DNA of 64,000 bases from Nocardia alni (GTDB lineage Bacteria > Actinomycetota > Actinomycetes > Mycobacteriales > Mycobacteriaceae), in the NCBI RefSeq assembly GCF_019038435.1, contig NZ_JAGPOX010000015.1, positions 1-64,000 on the forward strand, read 5' to 3'. Positions 54,541-63,393 of the stretch are shown here, in pieces. Each line of letters opens with the position of its first letter. Within the stretch, counting starts at the first letter, position 1. A model generated the notes under the pieces. It ran no database searches and was not told the DNA's origin. It saw only the letters and a program-made list of their open reading frames with translations. The position numbers and the translations under genes are program-made.

Positions 54541-55665
54541 GTGACAAGAACCGTCTCCGCGTGGCGGACGCTCCGCGCGAACCTGAACAGGGCGGAACAA
54601 ACCAGGCTGGGCGGGATGGCCCTGATAATCCTGGCGATGAACCTTTTCGGCTGGGGCATTTTCGTGCTCGCCATCATGCCCCACCACTTCCATTACAACG
54701 GCCTGGGTATCGGCCTCGGGGTGGCGTTCACCGCCTGGACGCTCGGCGCCCGGCACGCTTTCGACGCCGACCATATCTCGGCGATCGACAATGTCACCCG
54801 CAAACTGATGGCCGAGGGCAAACGGCCCCTGGGCACCGGGTTCTTCTTCGCCCTGGGCCATTCCTCGATCCTGGTCGCCGTCGGCGCGGGCATCGTGATC
54901 GCCACCAAGGCCGTCTACGGGGCGATGGTCGACCCGAACTCCACCTACGAGACCATCGGCGGCACCATCGGCACCAGTGCCGCGGCGCTGTTCCTGTACC
55001 TGATCGCGCTGCTGAACCTGGTGGTCCTGGCGGGCATCGTCAAGATCTTCCGATCCATGCGGCGCGGCCTGATGGACGAGCGGGAACTCGAGCGCCAGCT
55101 GCAGAACCGCGGTCTGATGTACCGGTTCTTCCGGCGCTGGATGAACTCGATCACCAAGACCCGGCACATGTTCCTGGTCGGCGTGGTGTTCGGCCTCGGC
55201 TTCGATACCGCCACCGAGGTACTGCTGCTCGCCGCGACCGCCGCCGCGGCCACCCAGGGCCTGCCCTGGTACGCGGTGCTGGCGCTGCCGCTGCTGTTCG
55301 CCGGCGGCATGACCCTGTTCGACACCGTCGACGGCATGTTCATGAACGTCGCCTACGGCTGGGCCTTCGCCAAACCCGTGCGCAAGGTGTACTACAACAT
55401 GATCGTCACCGGCTTGTCGATCTTCGTCGCGTTCGTGATCGGCACCATCGAGCTGTGCCAGGTCCTGTCCCAGGAACTCGACCTCGATGGGCCCTTCTGG
55501 AACTTCATGAACAACTTCGACATCAACAAGGCGGGATTCACCATCGCGGGGATGTTCGTGGTCGTCTGGATGGTCGCGGTCGCGGTCTGGCGGTTCGGCC
55601 GCCTGGAAGACCGCTGGACCGCCCGCGCTACCGAGCCGTCCGTGGAACCATCCACGGACACATAG
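54541..55665 (+). CDS. Nickel/cobalt permease, NicT/HoxN family
   Basis: A 374-aa membrane transporter with eight predicted helices. The signature ARHAFDADHISAIDN in helix 2 binds the metal, and FFFALGHSSIL and LGFDTATEVLLL complete the family motifs. GTG 54541 is set by the GGGAGG ribosome site. Control by a cobalamin riboswitch indicates that cobalt for B12 is the main cargo. The C-terminus is short and polar. Convergent with purU, 18 nt apart. Confidence 0.95.
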   Translation: MTRTVSAWRTLRANLNRAEQTRLGGMALIILAMNLFGWGIFVLAIMPHHFHYNGLGIGLGVAFTAWTLGARHAFDADHISAIDNVTRKLMAEGKRPLGTGFFFALGHSSILVAVGAGIVIATKAVYGAMVDPNSTYETIGGTIGTSAAALFLYLIALLNLVVLAGIVKIFRSMRRGLMDERELERQLQNRGLMYRFFRRWMNSITKTRHMFLVGVVFGLGFDTATEVLLLAATAAAATQGLPWYAVLALPLLFAGGMTLFDTVDGMFMNVAYGWAFAKPVRKVYYNMIVTGLSIFVAFVIGTIELCQVLSQELDLDGPFWNFMNNFDINKAGFTIAGMFVVVWMVAVAVWRFGRLEDRWTARATEPSVEPSTDT

Positions 55666-55683: not shown

Positions 55684-56571
55684 CTAACGGAAAACGACCG
55701 TGCGAGCGCCGTCGAGCAGCACCCGATTATCGGTATGCCACCGGACCGCCCGGGCGAGGGCCCGGCATTCGTTGTCCCGGCCGAGCGCGGTGACCTGATC
55801 CGCGGACAGAGAATGGTCGATGCGGGCCACTTCCTGCTCGATGATCGGGCCTTCGTCCAGATCGGCGGTGACGTAGTGGGCGGTCGCTCCGATGAGCTTC
55901 ACTCCGCGCTCGTGGGCCCGCTGGTAGGGCCGGGCACCCTTGAAGCTGGGCAGTATCGAGTGGTGGATATTGATCGCACGCCCCTCCAGCGTGTGGCACA
56001 GATCGACGGACAGGATCTGCATGTACCGGGCGAGCACGATCAGGTCCACATCCAGGTCGGCGATCAGTTCCAGCAGTCGAGCCTCGGCGTCGGCCCTGGT
56101 CTCGGGGGTGACGGGCACGTGATGGAACGGCACCCCGAAGTTGTCCGCCAGCACCCCGAGATCGGGATGGTTGGATACGACGGCGGACACGACGATGTTC
56201 AGTGCGCCGGTCGAGGCGCGGTAGAGCAGATCGTTGAGGCAGTGCCCGTATTTGCTCACCATGATCAGCACACGTTGCGGATCCGCGGCTCGAGTCAGCC
56301 GCCACGACATCGTCAGGGCGCCCGCGACCGAGGCGAAGCCCTGCCGCAACTCGGGTAGGTCCGGCGCGTGGCCGTAGACGTGCTCGAACTGCACGCGCAT
56401 GAACAACCGGGCCTGTGTGGGGTCACGGAATTGCTGGCTCTCGGTGATCGTGCAGCGGTGGTCGGCCAGAAAGCGGGCCACCGCCAGCACGATCCCGGGC
56501 TGGTCCGGGCAGGAGAGAGTGAGCACCAGCCCGGCGCCGGGCTGCCCGATCACGCTGATCTCTCCGGCCAT
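55684..56571 (-). CDS. purU: Formyltetrahydrofolate deformylase
   Basis: Hydrolyses 10-formyl-THF to formate and THF. The 295-aa protein has an N-terminal ACT domain (LTLSCPDQPGIVLAVARFL) and a formyltransferase-like domain with NIHHSILPSFKGARPYQRA, GATAHYVTADLDEGPII (catalytic Asp) as in PurU. ATG 56571 lies inside the 3' end of the MetF-like gene (22-nt overlap), so they are coupled. With the demethylase and MetF-like genes it would recycle THF and vent surplus one-carbon units as formate. Confidence 0.93.
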   Translation of the reverse strand: MAGEISVIGQPGAGLVLTLSCPDQPGIVLAVARFLADHRCTITESQQFRDPTQARLFMRVQFEHVYGHAPDLPELRQGFASVAGALTMSWRLTRAADPQRVLIMVSKYGHCLNDLLYRASTGALNIVVSAVVSNHPDLGVLADNFGVPFHHVPVTPETRADAEARLLELIADLDVDLIVLARYMQILSVDLCHTLEGRAINIHHSILPSFKGARPYQRAHERGVKLIGATAHYVTADLDEGPIIEQEVARIDHSLSADQVTALGRDNECRALARAVRWHTDNRVLLDGARTVVFR

Positions 56572-57446
56572 TCCGGTGTGGGAGAGGACGCCAGTCCTGT
56601 GAGCTGCCGCTGCCACGCGACGGTCACCTCGACCTGGTTGAACGTGAACATGTGCAGGCCTTCGATATCGAACTCCTCGGCGAGCAGCCGCTCGCCCATG
56701 TCCAGCAGCAGATCCTGCGGGGCGTAGGAGCGGCCCAGTAGCAGGCTGCCGACCATTCCGTGCTGCTTGGTCAAATACCGAATGGACTGGCCCACTCCGA
56801 TCCGAAGCGACAGTTCCGCCAGTTTCGTCGTCTTGATCGGTGCGGCCAGACCTATGCGCAGTGGCAGCAGGACCCCGGCCACCCGTATCTGCTCGATCCA
56901 GTCCATCAGCGCGGCGCTGTCGAAGCACAGCTGGCTGACCATGTAGTCGGCGTGGACCTGTTTATCGAGCAGTGCCTCCAGCAGGTCAGTGTCCGGAATC
57001 TTCGGGTGGCCCTCCGGGTAGCATCCGACGCCGATGCGCTCCAGCCCATGAGCGAATCCGGACAACGCGTCGAGTATCTCGGCAGCTGAGGAGAACTTGC
57101 CCAACGGCTCGTCCGCGTCGCCACCGATCACATACAGGTCGTTCACGCCCAAATCGACGACGCGGGACACGAATCGGCGCAACGATTGTTCGTCCCGGAC
57201 CATCCTCGCCGCCAGATGCGGCACCACGCGGTAGCCATCGGCAACCGTCGTGGTGGCATATTCCAGCGTCCGTTCGAGCCCGAACTTCGGTGAGCACGTG
57301 ATCGTTACCGTGGATCCCGTCGGCGCCGCCCGCACCTTTTCTCGCGCACCTTCGAGTGGAATCACCTCCAGCGACGCGGATGCGATCAAATCGGTTATGC
57401 GCTGGTGTATTTGTGTGCCGATGGCATCGCAGGGATTTTCGGTCAT
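56550..57446 (-). CDS. Methylenetetrahydrofolate reductase-like protein
   Basis: A 298-aa MetF-family TIM barrel: TITCSPKFGLERTLEYA (start of the barrel), VVPHLAARMVRD, NDLYVIGGDAD, VGCYPEGHPKIPD and MVSQLCFDSAAL, all recognisable MetF motifs. It interconverts 5,10-methylene- and 5-methyl-THF. ATG 57446 with GAGAG upstream; TTG 57467 is less likely. In Sphingobium a metF gene accompanies ligM to process 5-methyl-THF made by O-demethylation; the same logic fits here. Confidence 0.87.
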   Translation of the reverse strand: MTENPCDAIGTQIHQRITDLIASASLEVIPLEGAREKVRAAPTGSTVTITCSPKFGLERTLEYATTTVADGYRVVPHLAARMVRDEQSLRRFVSRVVDLGVNDLYVIGGDADEPLGKFSSAAEILDALSGFAHGLERIGVGCYPEGHPKIPDTDLLEALLDKQVHADYMVSQLCFDSAALMDWIEQIRVAGVLLPLRIGLAAPIKTTKLAELSLRIGVGQSIRYLTKQHGMVGSLLLGRSYAPQDLLLDMGERLLAEEFDIEGLHMFTFNQVEVTVAWQRQLTGLASSPTPEWPERSA

Positions 57447-57529
57447 GACACTCTCTTTCTGAACCAAGCCATGTGTCGCCGGGCGTGCGGCGCGGAGCTC
57501 TGGGCGGACCAGGGCGATGCGGCGGATCG

Positions 57530-58888
57530 CTAGACCAGCGGCCGGGTGCTCACGACCGCCCGGACTTCTCTGAGGGCGTGCGGCTCGACGGTGGGACGCA
57601 GGCGGGCTCCCTCGGGGTCGCCCCAGACCACGGTGACCTCGGTGCCGTCGACGGCCTGTTCCTCATCGATCATGGCGAGGGAGGACCACGTTCCGGCGTT
57701 GACGGTGTAGCCGGTGCGGTTCGAGATGCCCGCCACCCGGCCGTCGTGCATGACCACGTCGTACTGGAAGGTGGCGTAGACCGCGTAGGGGGTCTGCAGG
57801 TGCTTGGGCCGGTCCTGTTCGGGCGAGTACAGAGCGTCGCCGAGGAGGCGGGTGACGTCCTCGCGGTTCCAGCGCAGCCAAACCTTCCGCCGGTGCGGTT
57901 CGGCCTGGATCCGCCGTAGCGCGTCGGCGCCGATGAAGTCGTGGTCGAACTTGATCACGTTCGCGTAGCCGAGGTCGTAGGGCGTCGGCACGTAGTCGTT
58001 GATGTCGTCCGAGGCGAAGCTGCCTCCCAGGGATGCGCCGGCCTCGAATCCCTTGGCGGGCAGCCACTGTCGGTAGGCCTTCATGGCATCGCCGGCGTAG
58101 ATGCCGGGCACGGGCAGGCCCAGCCAGCCCGACTCCAGCGCTGTGGTGGAGTACGCGATCGCCCCGCCCTGCCGCAGGCCATACTGCTCGCCCGCGGAAA
58201 GCAGCGCCTCCAGGACCCGCGGCCCGGACTCCCGGGGCCCCCAGATCTCCAGACCGGTCATCTCCTGTCCGGGGACGCCCACCATGGTGTGGTTGAGCGC
58301 CTGAACCTCGATTCCGGCGATGTCGAAGGCGCCGATGGTGAAAAACTTGATCCGCGGAAGAGGGGCGCCGTGTGCGGCCGAGACGATTTCGAGGGCACGG
58401 GGTCCCTGGACCTGATAGCGGAACAGCAGGCGCTCGCCCGGGTTGGCCAGCGCGCTTTCGTCGCGACTGATCGCGATATCGTAACCGCCCCGCTCGGCCT
58501 GAAAGGAGACCCAGTTCGCGGCGCAGGGGCCGCCCACGATGCTGACCTTCTCCTCGCTCAGCCCGAACAGGATCGCGTCGCCGACGTACTGGCCGTCGGG
58601 GTTGCACACGATGATCTGCTTGGCCTTCCTCGCCCCGAAGGTGGCGAAGCTGTTGACCGCCACGTCGCTCAGCAGCTGCCGCACGCCGGGGCCCTCGAAG
58701 TAGACATCGGTCATGTGCTGGGACTGGTCGAATATTACGGCGGTCTCATGCCAGGACCTCTGCTCGTCCTGCCACGTGGTGAACTGAGGCGGAATGGGAA
58801 ACGGGGCAGCGCCGGCCCGCGAGGTGCGCAGCATATTCACCGCCCCGCCGGCCTCGGCGATCTTGTCTTCAAGACTCTCGATGGCCAT
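57530..58888 (-). CDS. Tetrahydrofolate-dependent demethylase, LigM/DesA-like (GcvT fold)
   Basis: Transfers a methyl group from its substrate to THF. The 452-aa protein closely follows LigM/DesA (vanillate and syringate O-demethylases) as I recall them: VNMLRTSRAGAAPF, WHETAVIFDQSQHMTD, GARKAKQIIVCNPDG, RYQVQGPRALEI, LESGWLGLPVPGIYAGD, GGSFASDDINDY, KFDHDFIGADAL and TVEPHALREVRAVVS. ATG 58888. GcvT-fold N-demethylases are a further possibility. It heads a demethylase-metF-purU unit whose upstream region is shared with the PrdB-like gene (58899-58966). Confidence 0.88.
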   Translation of the reverse strand: MAIESLEDKIAEAGGAVNMLRTSRAGAAPFPIPPQFTTWQDEQRSWHETAVIFDQSQHMTDVYFEGPGVRQLLSDVAVNSFATFGARKAKQIIVCNPDGQYVGDAILFGLSEEKVSIVGGPCAANWVSFQAERGGYDIAISRDESALANPGERLLFRYQVQGPRALEIVSAAHGAPLPRIKFFTIGAFDIAGIEVQALNHTMVGVPGQEMTGLEIWGPRESGPRVLEALLSAGEQYGLRQGGAIAYSTTALESGWLGLPVPGIYAGDAMKAYRQWLPAKGFEAGASLGGSFASDDINDYVPTPYDLGYANVIKFDHDFIGADALRRIQAEPHRRKVWLRWNREDVTRLLGDALYSPEQDRPKHLQTPYAVYATFQYDVVMHDGRVAGISNRTGYTVNAGTWSSLAMIDEEQAVDGTEVTVVWGDPEGARLRPTVEPHALREVRAVVSTRPLV

Positions 58889-58898
58889 ATCGGAAACG

Positions 58899-58966
58899 TT
58901 ATTAGCCGCGCCGCATCCGGCCGAGTCGCTGGCCGAAGGCGTAAGTGCCAGTTAGCGAACCGTGGT
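58899..58966 (-). promoter_or_regulatory. Conserved promoter/operator region of the demethylase, copy A
   Basis: 68 bp that match 63326-63393 at 56 positions with no gaps. On the minus strand it reads from the last codons of the AraC gene to a TAATAA element about 15 nt before the demethylase start. The longest identical block is TGGCCGAAGGCG. Confidence 0.75.
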
Positions 58967-60025
58967 GGCGTCCCCGGAACGCAGTGTCGTGGCGGGCCTG
59001 ACGCCGAATCGCTCGACGTAGCCGGCCGCGAACCGGCCGGCATGCCAGAAGCCCCAGCGGCACGCGACCTCGGTGACCGTGGTGCCGTCTCCAGGAGTGG
59101 CACGCCGAAGGTCCTCGTGGGCGCGCATCAGTCGCTGGTCCCGGACGAACTCGCGCGGCGTCTTACCCAGTTCCTTGCGAAAGCCCAGCTCGAGCGACCG
59201 GACGGTGACGCCCGCCGCACGGGCGAGGGCGGGGATCGTCCAGATGGCCTGTTCCTCGGCCGACACCAGGTCGACCGCCTCGCGGACGACGCGCCGGCCC
59301 GGCCGCGTCCCCTGGCCCAGCAGCCTGGCCCGGTAGTTGTGGTCCAGTCCGAGCAGCACAGCCAAGAGGACCTGCTCCTCGAGGCGGCGCGTGACCACCG
59401 GGGGAAGGGGGGAATCCGGGTCCTTCTCGTCGTAACTGGCGGCCAGCAGTTCGGCTGCCCCGGACAGCGACCGGCGCGCCGGCCCGGCGATCGGGCCCGT
59501 CTGGACCCGCAGGTCCGGGGGCGGCGACTCCATGAGCAGGTTCCCGAGCGCGAGTTCGACCGCGTGCCAGTCGACGCGCACCGTGAGTACCGACGCCCGA
59601 TCGCTCCACTGCGCGTGCAAGGCGTCCCGCGAGTACGTGACACCCGCCGTTTCCCCAGGCACGATGTCGAACTCGCGACCTTGATGCCGCATGTGCACCT
59701 GGCCGGAGACCGGGAGAAGGATCGCCAGGTAGTCACGGCGCGAAGGTAGCGGAACGTCCACGGCGACGTCGGTGCCGTACGTCAGGTACAGCAGGGAGGT
59801 GGAGTGAACCCCGACCGAGCGGCAGGTGGCCTCGAATCGGTCATCGTGGTCGCGCACCACCAACTGGTTCGTGGACAGGACGCCGGCCGTCAGGACCGAA
59901 GCCTCGGCGGGGTCCTTGGTGCGGTAGCGCTCGTAGGCGTGCAATGGCCCGTCGCCGCGGCTCGGGGCGGACACTGGAAAACCGGGACCCGTCGAGCTGG
60001 AAGTCATTTGATCGACGTCTGTCAC
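58952..60025 (-). CDS. AraC-family transcriptional regulator
   Basis: A 357-aa regulator with an AraC_binding_2-like N-terminal domain (LPSRRDYLAILLPVSGQVHM; FDIVPGETAGVTYS) and a C-terminal double HTH (IPALARAAGVTVRSLELGFR; TVTEVACRWGFWHAGRFAAG). GTG 60025 is preferred over 60031/60034 because GAGG stands 8 nt before it and because the sequence then matches the start of the PrdB-like gene (MTDVDQ...PGFPV). It sits just upstream of the demethylase unit and is the likely activator of the whole cluster. Confidence 0.88.
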   Translation of the reverse strand: MTDVDQMTSSSTGPGFPVSAPSRGDGPLHAYERYRTKDPAEASVLTAGVLSTNQLVVRDHDDRFEATCRSVGVHSTSLLYLTYGTDVAVDVPLPSRRDYLAILLPVSGQVHMRHQGREFDIVPGETAGVTYSRDALHAQWSDRASVLTVRVDWHAVELALGNLLMESPPPDLRVQTGPIAGPARRSLSGAAELLAASYDEKDPDSPLPPVVTRRLEEQVLLAVLLGLDHNYRARLLGQGTRPGRRVVREAVDLVSAEEQAIWTIPALARAAGVTVRSLELGFRKELGKTPREFVRDQRLMRAHEDLRRATPGDGTTVTEVACRWGFWHAGRFAAGYVERFGVRPATTLRSGDATTVR

Positions 60026-60199
60026 GGTCATCACCTCGGAAGGAAACGGTCCAATGCGTTCGGGAAGCCGGGAAGCGTTCGGCCACTGGATCTTTGAACC
60101 AGGAGACTACAGCGCGTAGCCGTATACCGAGACTGTACTCCGTCGGAGCCGCGCCTCCCGGTTTGTTCCCGCCCGATGACGGCGGCCACCTCGATCTCG

Positions 60200-60575
60200 T
60201 GGTCGAACGCGGCGCGCTAGGTAGACCAGGTGCATTCCGGCGTCCACGACAAGGTTCTCGCCGTTGACACCCGGGTAGGTCAACAGGAAGGGCACGGTTG
60301 CGACGATGTCGTCGGGAGCGGGCAGCCGTTTGACCGGCGTGCGCTGGCGCCTCGAAGAACTCGGCGAGGACCGGGTCGGCGTTGTCGATTGCCTCGGTTC
60401 CATCGACCGAGTCGGGCATGACGGCGTTCACGCGCACCGGAGCGATCTCGACCGCGAGTGAGTTGACCAGGCCGAGGATTGCGGACTTGGCCATCGACAT
60501 CGTCGTGGACCCCGGTGCGGCTCGGCCGGTTCGAACCCCAGGCCGCGCGCTCCGCCGATGACGAGGAGGTGTGCG
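60200..60575 (-). pseudogene. Short-chain dehydrogenase remnant
   Basis: Directly after the FAD monooxygenase stop the minus strand reads an SDR cofactor motif (HLLVIGGARGLG), then jumps to the active-site helix in another frame (SMAKSAILGLVNSLAVEIAP and on to VRVNAVMPD), and after a further frame change to the C-terminus (VKRLPAPDDIVATVPFLL; ENLVVDAGMHLVYL). The central 100 or so residues are deleted. The gene was part of the cluster and is now dead. Confidence 0.8.
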
Positions 60576-60576
60576 T

Positions 60577-62079
60577 CTAGGACGCCGGCACGGTGGTCGG
60601 CAGCAGCGTGGTCGCGAGTGTGGCGACCAGGGCGTCCAGTTCGGTCGCGTTGCCGGCGGCGCCGAAAAGGTATCGATCGGGCCGCACGATCACGGCCGCT
60701 GCTCCCAGACCGGTCACCCAGTCCCGGACCTCCCCGGAGAACTCGTCGAGGACATGGGTGCCGAGCGACTCGAGCAGCGCCTTGGTCCGGTCGGTGGTCC
60801 CGGACAGGACCGCGGGATCTCCCACCACGGCGAAGCGGTAGCCCACGACGTCGTCGAGGAGCCGGCCGCTCGCTGTCCTCGGCTGGGCGCTCAGCGTTCC
60901 GGCGAGTTCGTTCGTATCGCCCCGGACACCTGGGCCCAGACGCGGGCGCAACGCCTCGGCCCGGAGCACGGGCGGGTCTTCCTCCGACGCCACCAGGGCC
61001 TCGATCTTGTTCGCCAGCAGCGCGGACAGCGTCGTATACGCGTCCACATGCGGTCGGCGCTCGGTCTCGTAGGTGTCCAGCAGATCGATCGGCGAGTCGC
61101 CCCGAACCACCCGGCCGAGCTTCCACCCGAGATTCGTGGCGTCCCGGATGCCGGAACACATCCCCTGCCCCAGGTGGGGCGGCATGGTGTGGGCGGAATC
61201 CCCGGCGAGCAGGACCCGGCCGGCGCGCCACGGGCTGGCCGTGAGCGACCGCCACTCGTAGACGTCGCAGCGGAGCATCCGGTACTCGTCCGGGCTGAAC
61301 CACGGCGACAGTACTTCGTAAGCCTTCTCGGTCCGGGCGAAGGCGGCCGAATCGTCGTCCGGGCGAAGCATCAGCTCGAACCGCAGGCGAGGCCCGGCGA
61401 TCCGCGTGAACGTCAAGGGATTTCGGATCGCGCCCTGGATGAAGGCATCGCGGCCGGGGGGAAGATTGTCCTTGGTGACGAGCGGAATGATGTCGACGAT
61501 CAGTGAGCGGTGGGTCGCCTGGTGATCGATCTGCGTGCTGCCCATGTACTCGCGCACCCCCGATCTGGCGCCGTCGCAGCCCACCACGAATGACGCCCTG
61601 ATCCGGCGATCCTGGCGGGTGGCGATCTCGCGGAGGTTCACCAGTACGCGGTCGCGCGCGTCCTCCAGCCCCGTGACCTCCCAGCCGAAGTACGTGCCGG
61701 CCTCGGCGTAGTTGTGGGCGTGACCGCGCAACACGGCCTCGAAGTCGGGCTGGTGGAACATGTAGTCCGACTGCCACCCCTGCTCGGTGAGGCCCCGGTT
61801 CATAGCCATTTGCATCACGATGCGCCACTCGGAGTCGTAGTGGCGGTAGGTGCCCACCAGCGAGAAGGTCTTCTCCAGGTGCTGCACCCCCAGTGTCTGG
61901 AACGCCCTCATCGTCTCGTCGTCGACATGCGTCGCACGCGGACGGGCCATCGGCATCCGGCCGCGGTCGATGACGGCGATCCGGAGACCCTCCAGCTCGA
62001 GGAGACGACCGAGCGCTAGACCTGTTGTCCCGCAGCCAATTACGGCGACATCGACATCGCCGTCGACTGTGCTGTTCAT
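60577..62079 (-). CDS. FAD-dependent aromatic-ring-type monooxygenase (MhpA/PheA group)
   Basis: A 500-aa class A flavoprotein hydroxylase: N-terminal VIGCGTTGLALGRLL, the DG motif in VVGCDGARSGVRE, and GD motif LAGDSAHTMPPHLGQGMCSG. Layout and length are those of 3-(3-hydroxyphenyl)propionate hydroxylase and similar phenol hydroxylases. ATG 62079 with GAGAAGGG about 6 nt upstream. In the cluster it would hydroxylate the substrate before or after demethylation. The downstream SDR is decayed. Confidence 0.88.
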   Translation of the reverse strand: MNSTVDGDVDVAVIGCGTTGLALGRLLELEGLRIAVIDRGRMPMARPRATHVDDETMRAFQTLGVQHLEKTFSLVGTYRHYDSEWRIVMQMAMNRGLTEQGWQSDYMFHQPDFEAVLRGHAHNYAEAGTYFGWEVTGLEDARDRVLVNLREIATRQDRRIRASFVVGCDGARSGVREYMGSTQIDHQATHRSLIVDIIPLVTKDNLPPGRDAFIQGAIRNPLTFTRIAGPRLRFELMLRPDDDSAAFARTEKAYEVLSPWFSPDEYRMLRCDVYEWRSLTASPWRAGRVLLAGDSAHTMPPHLGQGMCSGIRDATNLGWKLGRVVRGDSPIDLLDTYETERRPHVDAYTTLSALLANKIEALVASEEDPPVLRAEALRPRLGPGVRGDTNELAGTLSAQPRTASGRLLDDVVGYRFAVVGDPAVLSGTTDRTKALLESLGTHVLDEFSGEVRDWVTGLGAAAVIVRPDRYLFGAAGNATELDALVATLATTLLPTTVPAS

Positions 62080-62092
62080 ATCGCCCTTCTCC

Positions 62093-62353
62093 TCAGCCGA
62101 GGCTGAACTTGTCGGTGAGCAGGCTGAAGTTGAGCTGGACGGTTCCCTCGTTTCTTATCCCCTGGAGGGTTATGGCTGGTTCGTAAACGGCGACATGGGA
62201 TTTCAACGTCCGATTGGTGACCGCCTCCAGGACGGTGAGGCCGCCGGTTTCGGCCACGGTCACAAAGGGGGCCGAGACCCAGAGCGCTCCGTCATTCCAC
62301 CGGGGACCTTCGCCCAGGGTTAGTCCGGCGCTGTACAGGGTGATGCCTCCACC
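62093..62353 (-). other. Open frame continuing past the TGA of the PrdB-like gene
   Basis: After the TGA at 62356-62354 the same frame stays open for 86 codons to a TGA at 62095. Sequence is protein-like: LYSAGLTLGEGPRWNDGALW, VAETGGLTVLEAVTNRTL, GTVQLNFSLLTDKFSLG. The opening resembles the start of SMP-30/gluconolactonase proteins, the rest does not. There is no ATG, GTG or TTG near its start; GGTGGAGG precedes a CTG at 62338. It could be a readthrough or selenocysteine extension, a separate gene with a rare start, or a remnant. Confidence 0.55.
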
Positions 62354-63283
62354 TCAGCAGGCACACCGGATGGCGAACTCACGCTCGTTCCCACCACCCA
62401 AGACCTGCTTGTGGGCCTTCGCATTCGCCAAGGCGGCGCCGCGGATCGCGTTGTCGGTGCGGTAGAGGTCCGCGACGAGGTCTTCCCAGTCCCGGTTGCC
62501 GTCCGCGGCCCACTGGAACGGCAGCCGCTTCAGCGCCCAGTCCGGTCCGGCCTGCTCGGCGTGTTGCAGTGCGGCCGTGACGATCTCGCGTTGCTGGGCT
62601 CTTTCTCGCGGCCGGCCGGCCGGACAGCCCAGCGGGAAGTCGAGGAAGGAGGCGCGCGGCGGCTTCAGGTGGGTTGCCTGCTTGTAGAGGGTGGTGATGC
62701 TGGCGGTCGGGACTCCCCGTCGTTCGATCGCGCGGGCCAGGACCCCGAAGGCCACGTGGCACTGCGGGCAGAACGGCACGGTCAGCACCAGGTCGGCGCC
62801 CATGGCGGTGAATTCCTCGGCGATCCGGGGAGCCACCTCGGTCGCCAGCTCGTCGAACTGGCTGATCGAGCCGACCATCGACACGGCGTTGTCCGCGTAC
62901 CGGCCGATCACGCCGTCGCGTTCCAGGTCGAGCATGGTGTCCCTGGGGTAGGCCACGTTGGGGTCGGCGAGGGCGAAGGCGCGGATCGGCGTCATGTGCG
63001 CGATCAGCACGTCGTCCAGTTCGCGCTCCCTGGGCAGCAGCCGGTACGACAGATCGCTGTGCTGCCCGAGTCGCGGCTGGTCCGGGAAGTAGGCGCCGCA
63101 GGAGACGAGCAGCCCGATCGTGGCCTCACGCAACGGAACCCGCAGCGGTGTCAGTTCGGGGGCATCGAAATCCGGCAGCGGCTCGGGCTCTATACCCAGC
63201 ACGTTCTTGAGCAGCTTGTCCGGGTCGAACACCGGGAAGCCGGGGCTTTCGAGGCCGGAAGCGATCTGATCGACATCTGTCAT
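62354..63283 (-). CDS. PrdB/GrdB-family reductase-like protein, cysteine form
   Basis: A 309-aa relative of the selenoprotein B subunits of D-proline and glycine/sarcosine/betaine reductases. Matching blocks against PrdB: HSDLSYRLLP, LERDGVIGRYADNAVSMVG, and LVLTVPFCPQCHVAFGVLAR then RRGVPTAS, where Cys172 replaces the selenocysteine of U-G-T-C-H and Cys175/His176 are kept. LDFPLGCPAGRP is a further family motif. ATG 63283 with GAGGAGAG upstream. These enzymes are known from amino-acid-fermenting anaerobes; here it neighbours an FAD monooxygenase and a THF demethylase, so the substrate and electron donor must differ. Confidence 0.8.
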   Translation of the reverse strand: MTDVDQIASGLESPGFPVFDPDKLLKNVLGIEPEPLPDFDAPELTPLRVPLREATIGLLVSCGAYFPDQPRLGQHSDLSYRLLPRERELDDVLIAHMTPIRAFALADPNVAYPRDTMLDLERDGVIGRYADNAVSMVGSISQFDELATEVAPRIAEEFTAMGADLVLTVPFCPQCHVAFGVLARAIERRGVPTASITTLYKQATHLKPPRASFLDFPLGCPAGRPRERAQQREIVTAALQHAEQAGPDWALKRLPFQWAADGNRDWEDLVADLYRTDNAIRGAALANAKAHKQVLGGGNEREFAIRCAC

Positions 63284-63325
63284 GGTTCTCTCCTCGGAAA
63301 GAAAGCGGCCGAATATGATCGAACT

Positions 63326-63393
63326 TTATTAGCCGTGCCACCTCCCACCGAGCCGTTGGCCGAAGGCGCAGGTGTCAGTTGGCGAACCGCGGT
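63326..63393 (-). promoter_or_regulatory. Conserved promoter/operator region of the PrdB-like gene, copy B
   Basis: 68 bp matching copy A (58899-58966) at 56 of 68 positions, 43 nt upstream of the PrdB-like ATG. On the minus strand the distal end and the bases before it read RAAATPRSKAGTAVR, similar to the AraC C-terminus RPATTLRSGDATTVR, so it appears to be the 3' end of a lost AraC paralogue plus the promoter. Confidence 0.7.

Follow-up and report, generated by a model that had tools for sequence, protein, structure and literature searches.

Introduction

LigM-type enzymes pass the O-methyl group of their substrates to tetrahydrofolate (THF), and MetF, FolD and PurU oxidize it to formate. 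Class A flavin enzymes hydroxylate phenols, and extradiol cleavage followed by hydrolysis by FAH-family proteins are known family roles. Excerpts of the Global Ocean Sampling (GOS) survey place proteins resembling the D-proline reductase protein PrdB among the most abundant marine selenoprotein families (PMC2398784). In the open-access literature that we searched, no reaction was reported for PrdB-like proteins of organisms other than anaerobes. Here, we analyzed a gene cluster of Nocardia alni in which a PrdB-like protein and a LigM-like demethylase are encoded together. The cluster lies in a window of 64,000 nucleotides, the whole stretch of DNA under analysis (RefSeq assembly GCF_019038435.1, contig NZ_JAGPOX010000015.1, positions 1 to 64,000), and had been singled out in a prediction made from the sequence alone (the original prediction). 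We tentatively favor the reading that the window carries a partly decayed version of an aerobic cluster for methoxylated aromatics that is under AraC control and moves horizontally, and in which the PrdB-like protein (Prd) would be a standalone thiol reductase. In the open-access search, we found no description of the cluster and no paper that links aerobic PrdB-like proteins to a LigM-type demethylase; the parts of the cluster are known families.

Results

Conservation of the prd cluster

Pfam and NCBIfam scores recovered every gene named in the original prediction at its position and on the minus strand, giving six open genes in the order prd, FAD monooxygenase (FMO), araC, ligM-like, metF-like and purU (Table 1). 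The FMO and PurU exceed the cut-offs of their models, whereas the MetF-like protein passes the Pfam family and fails the equivalog. Scanning of genome contigs turned up five loci with closely related Prd proteins (85-87% identical), two in Catenulispora pinisilvae and a single one in each of C. pinistramenti, Amycolatopsis saalfeldensis and Streptomyces sp. NRRL F-5126. At four of the five (L003 to L006, including the Amycolatopsis locus L004 and the Streptomyces locus L005, and taken with the adjoining stretches L020, L041 and L042), prd is accompanied by genes for a FAH-family hydrolase (FAHa), a VOC extradiol-type dioxygenase, an SMP-30-type lactonase, a YCII-like protein, a short-chain dehydrogenase/reductase (SDR) and a second FAH hydrolase (FAHb), as well as by araC, ligM, metF and purU, in several orientations. 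Three of these four fuller clusters have an FMO, which is 82-86% identical in four relatives. At the fifth locus, the 4.6-kb Catenulispora contig L002, the FMO directly follows prd; the same adjacency is seen in the remnant L064 of C. pinistramenti, and a frameshifted prd remnant was found in G929. The neighborhood thus recurs in Catenulispora, Amycolatopsis and Streptomyces and is not confined to a single genome, as a search for co-occurrence suggested by the original prediction established.

TABLE 1 Genes, gene remnants and upstream elements of the prd cluster in the N. alni window
Feature	Position	Strand	Assignment
prd (PrdB-like)	62354..63283	-	309 amino acids (aa); TIGR04483 PrdB 105.3 bits (equivalog cut-off 300), E 3e-30; PF07355 GRDB 22.8 bits (gathering score 22)
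FMO, class A, MhpA-like	60577..62079	-	500 aa, open reading frame intact; NF004829 419.1 bits (cut-off 390)
AraC-family regulator	58952..60034	-	Pfam AraC_binding_2 and HTH_18
LigM/DesA-like THF-dependent O-demethylase	57530..58888	-	452 aa; DesA model 485.7 bits (equivalog cut-off 800), LigM model 458 bits (equivalog cut-off 580)
MetF-like methylene-THF reductase	56550..57467	-	PF02219 41.7 bits (cut-off 24); TIGR00676 55.9 bits (equivalog cut-off 293.7)
PurU formyl-THF deformylase	55684..56550	-	TIGR00655 328.9 bits (cut-off 285.95)
SMP-30/gluconolactonase remnant	62180..62344	-	Residues 1-26 abutting 244-272; tblastn with the L003 protein and junction sequence
YCII-like remnant	62099..62152	-	Tail residues 122-139; tblastn match in L001, under threshold across the whole window
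SDR remnant	60224..60577	-	Three pieces (residues 28-45, 155-218, 224-261); tblastn, 76-89% identity to the L003 SDR
Promoter-type element before prd	63321..63388	-	68 bp, common to the ligM upstream region and other genomes
Second element copy, before ligM	58894..58961	-	Same 68-bp type

In the window, L003, L004 and L006, a 68-bp element, GGTTCGCTAACTGGCAC...CTTCGGCCAGCGACTCGG...TAACGT, occurs upstream of prd and again upstream of ligM. A copy also precedes prd in L002 and ligM in L005. A weight matrix was built from the first 36 columns of ten such sites, which were picked by eye and hence provide no independent evidence. Independent evidence comes from two sites outside the training set, because neither was used in building the matrix: one before prd in L005 (37.6 bits), and a weaker one (23.0) in the Streptomyces locus (L041), about 180 bp ahead of metF. 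With the L005 prd site counted, the element precedes prd and ligM in all five genomes. The only other matches over 15 in a scan of 1.03 Mb of collected loci (overlapping copies included) scored 15.8 and 18.6, and 0.74 Mb of base-shuffled cluster loci gave none. The occurrence of the element before prd and before ligM makes both halves of the cluster look like one regulon, and the AraC protein may bind the element and regulate the cluster. The core proposal of the original prediction, a catabolic cluster for methyl groups that includes a PrdB-like gene, is therefore borne out as a conserved and, judging from the shared element, apparently co-regulated unit.

Decay of the window copy

The original prediction had treated the window as the whole system, and this part had to be abandoned. 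Searches by tblastn with proteins of the fuller clusters did not find FAHa, VOC or FAHb in the window, and the lactonase, YCII-like and SDR genes are present as remnants (Table 1). These remnants, which the original prediction did not mention, fill the stretches between prd and the FMO gene and between the FMO gene and araC. A VOC paralogue (59%) lies elsewhere in the N. alni genome, the genome-wide search having covered VOC only. The first ~20 codons of araC and the DNA upstream of them resemble the 5' end of prd (79% over 118 bp to the prd start of L002), as if the araC start came from an in-frame fusion with prd-like DNA. Together, the remnants, the absence of FAHa, VOC and FAHb and the altered araC start indicate that the window is a rearranged, partly decayed copy.

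These observations also raise the question of whether the N. alni cluster is a dead relic, in which Prd, FMO and the other proteins are merely not yet broken, a reading compatible with any of those considered below for the intact cluster. The three genes down to remnants, the three not found, the araC start and the frameshifted prd of G929 would all fit such a relic. However, six genes remain open, both window elements score as high as those of the fuller clusters, and the ratio of nonsynonymous to synonymous divergence (dN/dS) of the window Prd and FMO against their orthologues is 0.16-0.29, although such pairwise values do not tell when constraint was lost. We therefore regard a dead relic as rather unlikely. 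Beyond the cluster, a gene for a NicT nickel transporter (54541-55665) is convergent with purU, and no tie between it and the cluster was seen.

Active site and C-terminal tail of Prd

The original prediction related Prd to PrdB and GrdB by aligning its FCPQCH motif with the selenocysteine (Sec) site, and named assignment to an unrelated family as the outcome that would speak against this. The profile search gave no such assignment. Prd lies below the PrdB equivalog cut-off and only marginally over the GRDB gathering score (Table 1), and the alignment backs membership in the superfamily. The UxxC/CxxC motif at the conserved superfamily position is present as C172-P-Q-C175-H, with Cys172, encoded by TGC, as the nucleophile; Prd has no Sec, unlike D-proline reductase. 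In the alignment, Cys172 falls on an in-frame TGA both in Peptoclostridium PrdB (AG-TGA-GTCH) and in the actinobacterial relatives L026 and L028. Six PrdB-like genes (L022, L023, L024, L025, L029 and L031) from four genomes of one family, f16, have TAG at this position. UAG-coded Sec is reported in Geodermatophilaceae in excerpts of a published study (PMC5330540), and the TAG codons of f16, which is probably Geodermatophilaceae, are consistent with such coding. As Cys172 occupies the Sec codon position of these relatives, Prd is the Cys form of a Sec/Cys family.

Among nine aligned family members, C172, P173, C175 and H176 are invariant. Prd ends in C307-A-C309, and a CxC ending (RCAC/RCNC) is shared by five of the nine, all of the same subfamily: the window Prd, three close relatives and a 45-46%-identical relative from G124, a genome of the same taxonomic family. 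The other four proteins are more distant and have no C-terminal CxC. We read the tail as a putative electron relay. Solved structures gave no convincing match to Prd by sequence (best E 2) and none by profile search, and of 13 stretches matched in a scan of viral contigs for Prd relatives, none was confirmed. Kinship of Prd with Asp/Glu racemases or maleate isomerases was considered and rejected, as profile comparison showed no relation to four racemase-type proteins of the same genome (probability 0.4%, both profiles being shallow).

Search for a pyruvoyl partner

No PrdA/GrdE-type pyruvoyl partner (PF09338) was found in any of seven genomes, N. alni included, by a search that a very divergent partner could escape; the control search matched in 4/4 cases, namely three genomes and a single record in which PF09338 was expected. 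This result speaks against Schiff-base amine chemistry of the proline or betaine type, the kind known from D-proline and glycine reductase, and Prd most probably functions without a pyruvoyl group. Betaine and proline betaine were set aside as substrates, since ring-cleavage genes occur in the fuller clusters and the PrdA/GrdE search gave no match. Of the N- or O-methylated compound foreseen by the original prediction, the methylation stood, and the ring-cleavage genes make a methoxylated aromatic a better candidate than a betaine. The reductive or thiol-based cleavage that the original prediction ascribed to Prd is a hypothesis, as is any cleavage of a C-N bond.

A GrdB-family protein, FarB of Cloacibacillus, is implicated in C-F cleavage and fluoroacetate reduction, as inferred from operon induction and comparative growth, and its partner FarE is described as lacking the pyruvoyl-forming cysteines (PMC10838667). 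Prd might be the founding member of an oxygen-tolerant, pyruvoyl-free PrdB/GrdB class that would reductively remove a halogen, hydroxyl or methoxyl group from an aromatic or quinoid intermediate by means of its CxxC motif and CxC tail, a proposal that we consider unlikely.

Demethylation genes and proposed pathway

The LigM-like protein falls below both equivalog cut-offs (Table 1) and matches the LigM structures 5x1i (E 5e-118) and 5tl4 over its full length. Tyr246, the equivalent of LigM Tyr247, which we take to be catalytic, is invariant in all five cluster homologues. We infer the following order of steps. The LigM-like protein would transfer the O-methyl group of a methoxylated aromatic to THF, and the MetF-like protein and PurU, with a presumed housekeeping FolD, would convert methyl-THF to formate and free THF. 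The FMO would hydroxylate the phenol thus released. Ring opening by the VOC dioxygenase would follow in the fuller clusters, where the FAH-family hydrolases, lactonase and SDR would finish the degradation. Prd would act near the FMO step, Cys172 attacking an electrophilic carbon or quinoid intermediate that arises from demethylation or hydroxylation; Cys175 would resolve the adduct to a disulfide, and the C-terminal CxC tail would deliver electrons.

The gene order Prd-FAHa-VOC of the fuller clusters corresponds to the familiar isomerase-hydrolase-dioxygenase trio, the closest match to FAHa in the PDB is a putative HpcE protein, and no other isomerase was recognized among the annotated cluster genes. 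Mycothiol- or glutathione-dependent maleylpyruvate isomerases are thiol-based cis-trans isomerases. Like them, Prd could isomerize the product of ring cleavage with a thiol and hand the trans isomer to the FAH-family hydrolase, and would then not be a reductase. However, the five cluster genomes each hold a further VOC dioxygenase (L034 to L039, 58-60% identical in these six loci), in five of the six loci beside a FAHa homologue and in none with Prd. Furthermore, the window, L002 and L064 retain Prd beside the FMO without VOC or FAHa, redox chemistry is suggested by the CxxC motif, the Sec of relatives and the CxC tail, and no relation to the racemase-type proteins was seen. An isomerase thus appears quite unlikely.

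In chlorophenol pathways, quinones made by FMOs need thiol or NADH reductases, and prd adjoins the FMO gene. Prd could thus be a reductive dehalogenase acting on a chlorinated methoxyphenol, with Cys172 taking the halogen off the ring or off a chloroquinone made by the FMO. The C-F cleavage in which the GrdB-like FarB is implicated would be a precedent (PMC10838667). We nevertheless hold a dehalogenase to be very doubtful, as there is no sign of a halogenated substrate and the cluster genes were not seen to include a halide transporter or any other gene for dehalogenation.

Evolution of the cluster

For prd, all 15 pairs gave a dN/dS of 0.14-0.25, which is the lowest range among the cluster genes; the FMO values are 0.23-0.29 in 10 of 10 pairs. 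This bears on whether Prd takes a step in the pathway at all, or is an accessory protein for quinone or peroxide detoxification or redox sensing that is carried with the FMO. Many Sec/Cys UxxC proteins are antioxidants, and relatives of Prd occur in many actinobacteria, with no constant neighborhood among those inspected. Its dN/dS range and the position of prd as the first gene behind the shared element make a purely accessory role improbable.

Between genera, prd shows a synonymous divergence of 0.31-0.48, and the two Catenulispora species differ by 0.25-0.26; these low values, taken without a genomic baseline, and the sporadic distribution of the gene suggest horizontal transfer between genera. 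The demethylation genes are more variable. Prd, FMO and VOC of the Amycolatopsis locus are 81-86% identical to their counterparts, whereas its LigM is only 61-62% identical to the other cluster LigMs, and the window MetF and PurU are 54-69% identical to theirs. The demethylation part was therefore exchanged, or newly recruited, on more than one occasion around a steadier core, which we take as support for a methylated substrate.

Distribution of PrdB-like proteins

With the window protein as the query (E 1e-10), matches were obtained in 2 of 201 genomes of its own family, 11 of 298 genomes of the order and at least 2 of 394 genomes of the class, as well as in 8 of 249 genomes of the family of Amycolatopsis and 3 of 245 of the order of Catenulispora. 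A profile of nine sequences (E 1e-20) matched in at least 65 of 396 genomes across the phylum. The class and phylum surveys scored five candidates per genome, making their counts lower bounds, and the phylum fraction, obtained by profile at a different threshold, is not comparable with those from the single sequence. Among the matches listed in the phylum survey, most have an in-frame TGA, scored by presence only, the positions not being compared one by one. No constant partner was seen near the distant relatives (L021 to L030, L043, L044, L060 to L066 and L098 to L103), where neighboring genes were called by a simple script based on GC content at third codon positions and those outside the Pfam and NCBIfam runs were judged by eye.

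Several of these loci have features of their own. In three genomes of f14, the family of Amycolatopsis, L062, L063 and L066 encode PrdA-PrdB-type fusions of ~650-710 aa, and the active site of the fusions in L062 and L063 is CGSCH, a Cys form. The Haematobacter plasmid pOT1-1 (L044:7072-10807) has a PrdB-like gene after a ~900-aa gene annotated as a class III aminotransferase, beside a run of cobalamin genes. The 46%-identical relative in G124 (L021:8373-9860) adjoins a gene near the cut-off for deazaflavin-dependent nitroreductases and, by eye, a TetR-like gene.

Discussion

The conserved neighborhood, the shared element and the Sec-site cysteine of Prd are consistent with an aerobic cluster for methoxylated aromatics that would be regulated by AraC and would have passed between genera, with Prd as a thiol reductase; the order of steps, the substrate class and all of the Prd chemistry are here proposed. 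Several observations weigh against this reading. All cluster functions are read from genes, and both the reaction and the substrate of Prd are predicted; an AlphaFold2 model of Prd from a six-sequence alignment had a mean predicted local distance difference test (pLDDT) score of 39, from which no conclusion on its fold was drawn. At the position of LigM Arg122, which presumably holds the substrate carboxylate, all five cluster homologues have a glycine (Gly120), so the substrate may differ from vanillate and need not be a benzoate. The other actinobacterial PrdB-like proteins that were inspected lie in varied neighborhoods without the cluster genes, and the function of the family therefore need not be aromatic. 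VOC-FAHa modules without Prd exist, some of them with an FMO. The fuller clusters are not all complete, since L003 has no FMO at the cluster and the L005 purU (L005:19995-20713) is apparently frameshifted between residues 215 and 253. The window itself is without the dioxygenase and both FAH hydrolases, its SDR and lactonase are broken, and it may therefore no longer serve growth. Finally, the transfer between genera is suggested by synonymous divergence that stands without a genomic baseline.

PrdB-like proteins outside anaerobes are widespread, and the cluster links one subfamily of them to a putative regulon whose class of substrate can be guessed. It makes the function of an orphan Sec/Cys family testable, and its hosts are strains bearing collection names. 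If Prd does represent a pyruvoyl-free reductive class, this would be, as far as the searched literature shows, the first pathway role for aerobic PrdB-like proteins.

Compared with D-proline reductase PrdB and with GrdB, Prd matches the profile over residues 42-260, keeps the U/CxxCH nucleophile position, the second Cys and the His, and shares H96, D107, P113, R184, P209-R210, G219 and G223 with Peptoclostridium PrdB. It differs in having Cys for Sec, a length of ~300 aa, a C-terminal CxC tail, an aerobic catabolic setting and a score far under the equivalog cut-off, and no PrdA/GrdE partner was found. The LigM-like protein resembles the LigM/DesA O-demethylases in its full-length match and its Tyr247 equivalent, but departs from them in its scores under the equivalog cut-offs, the Gly at the Arg122 position and its actinobacterial host. 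FarB and FarE offer the likeness of a GrdB-family protein implicated in the conversion of a nonamine substrate, but FarB is anaerobic and contains Sec, has FarE as a partner and, by prediction, feeds into the glycine reductase system (PMC10838667). The marine PrdB-like proteins, for which the GOS survey lists 235 Sec and 110 Cys forms, are UxxC proteins of the same Pfam family as Prd; excerpts of that survey give no pathway for them, whereas the Cys form studied here sits in a conserved catabolic context (PMC2398784).

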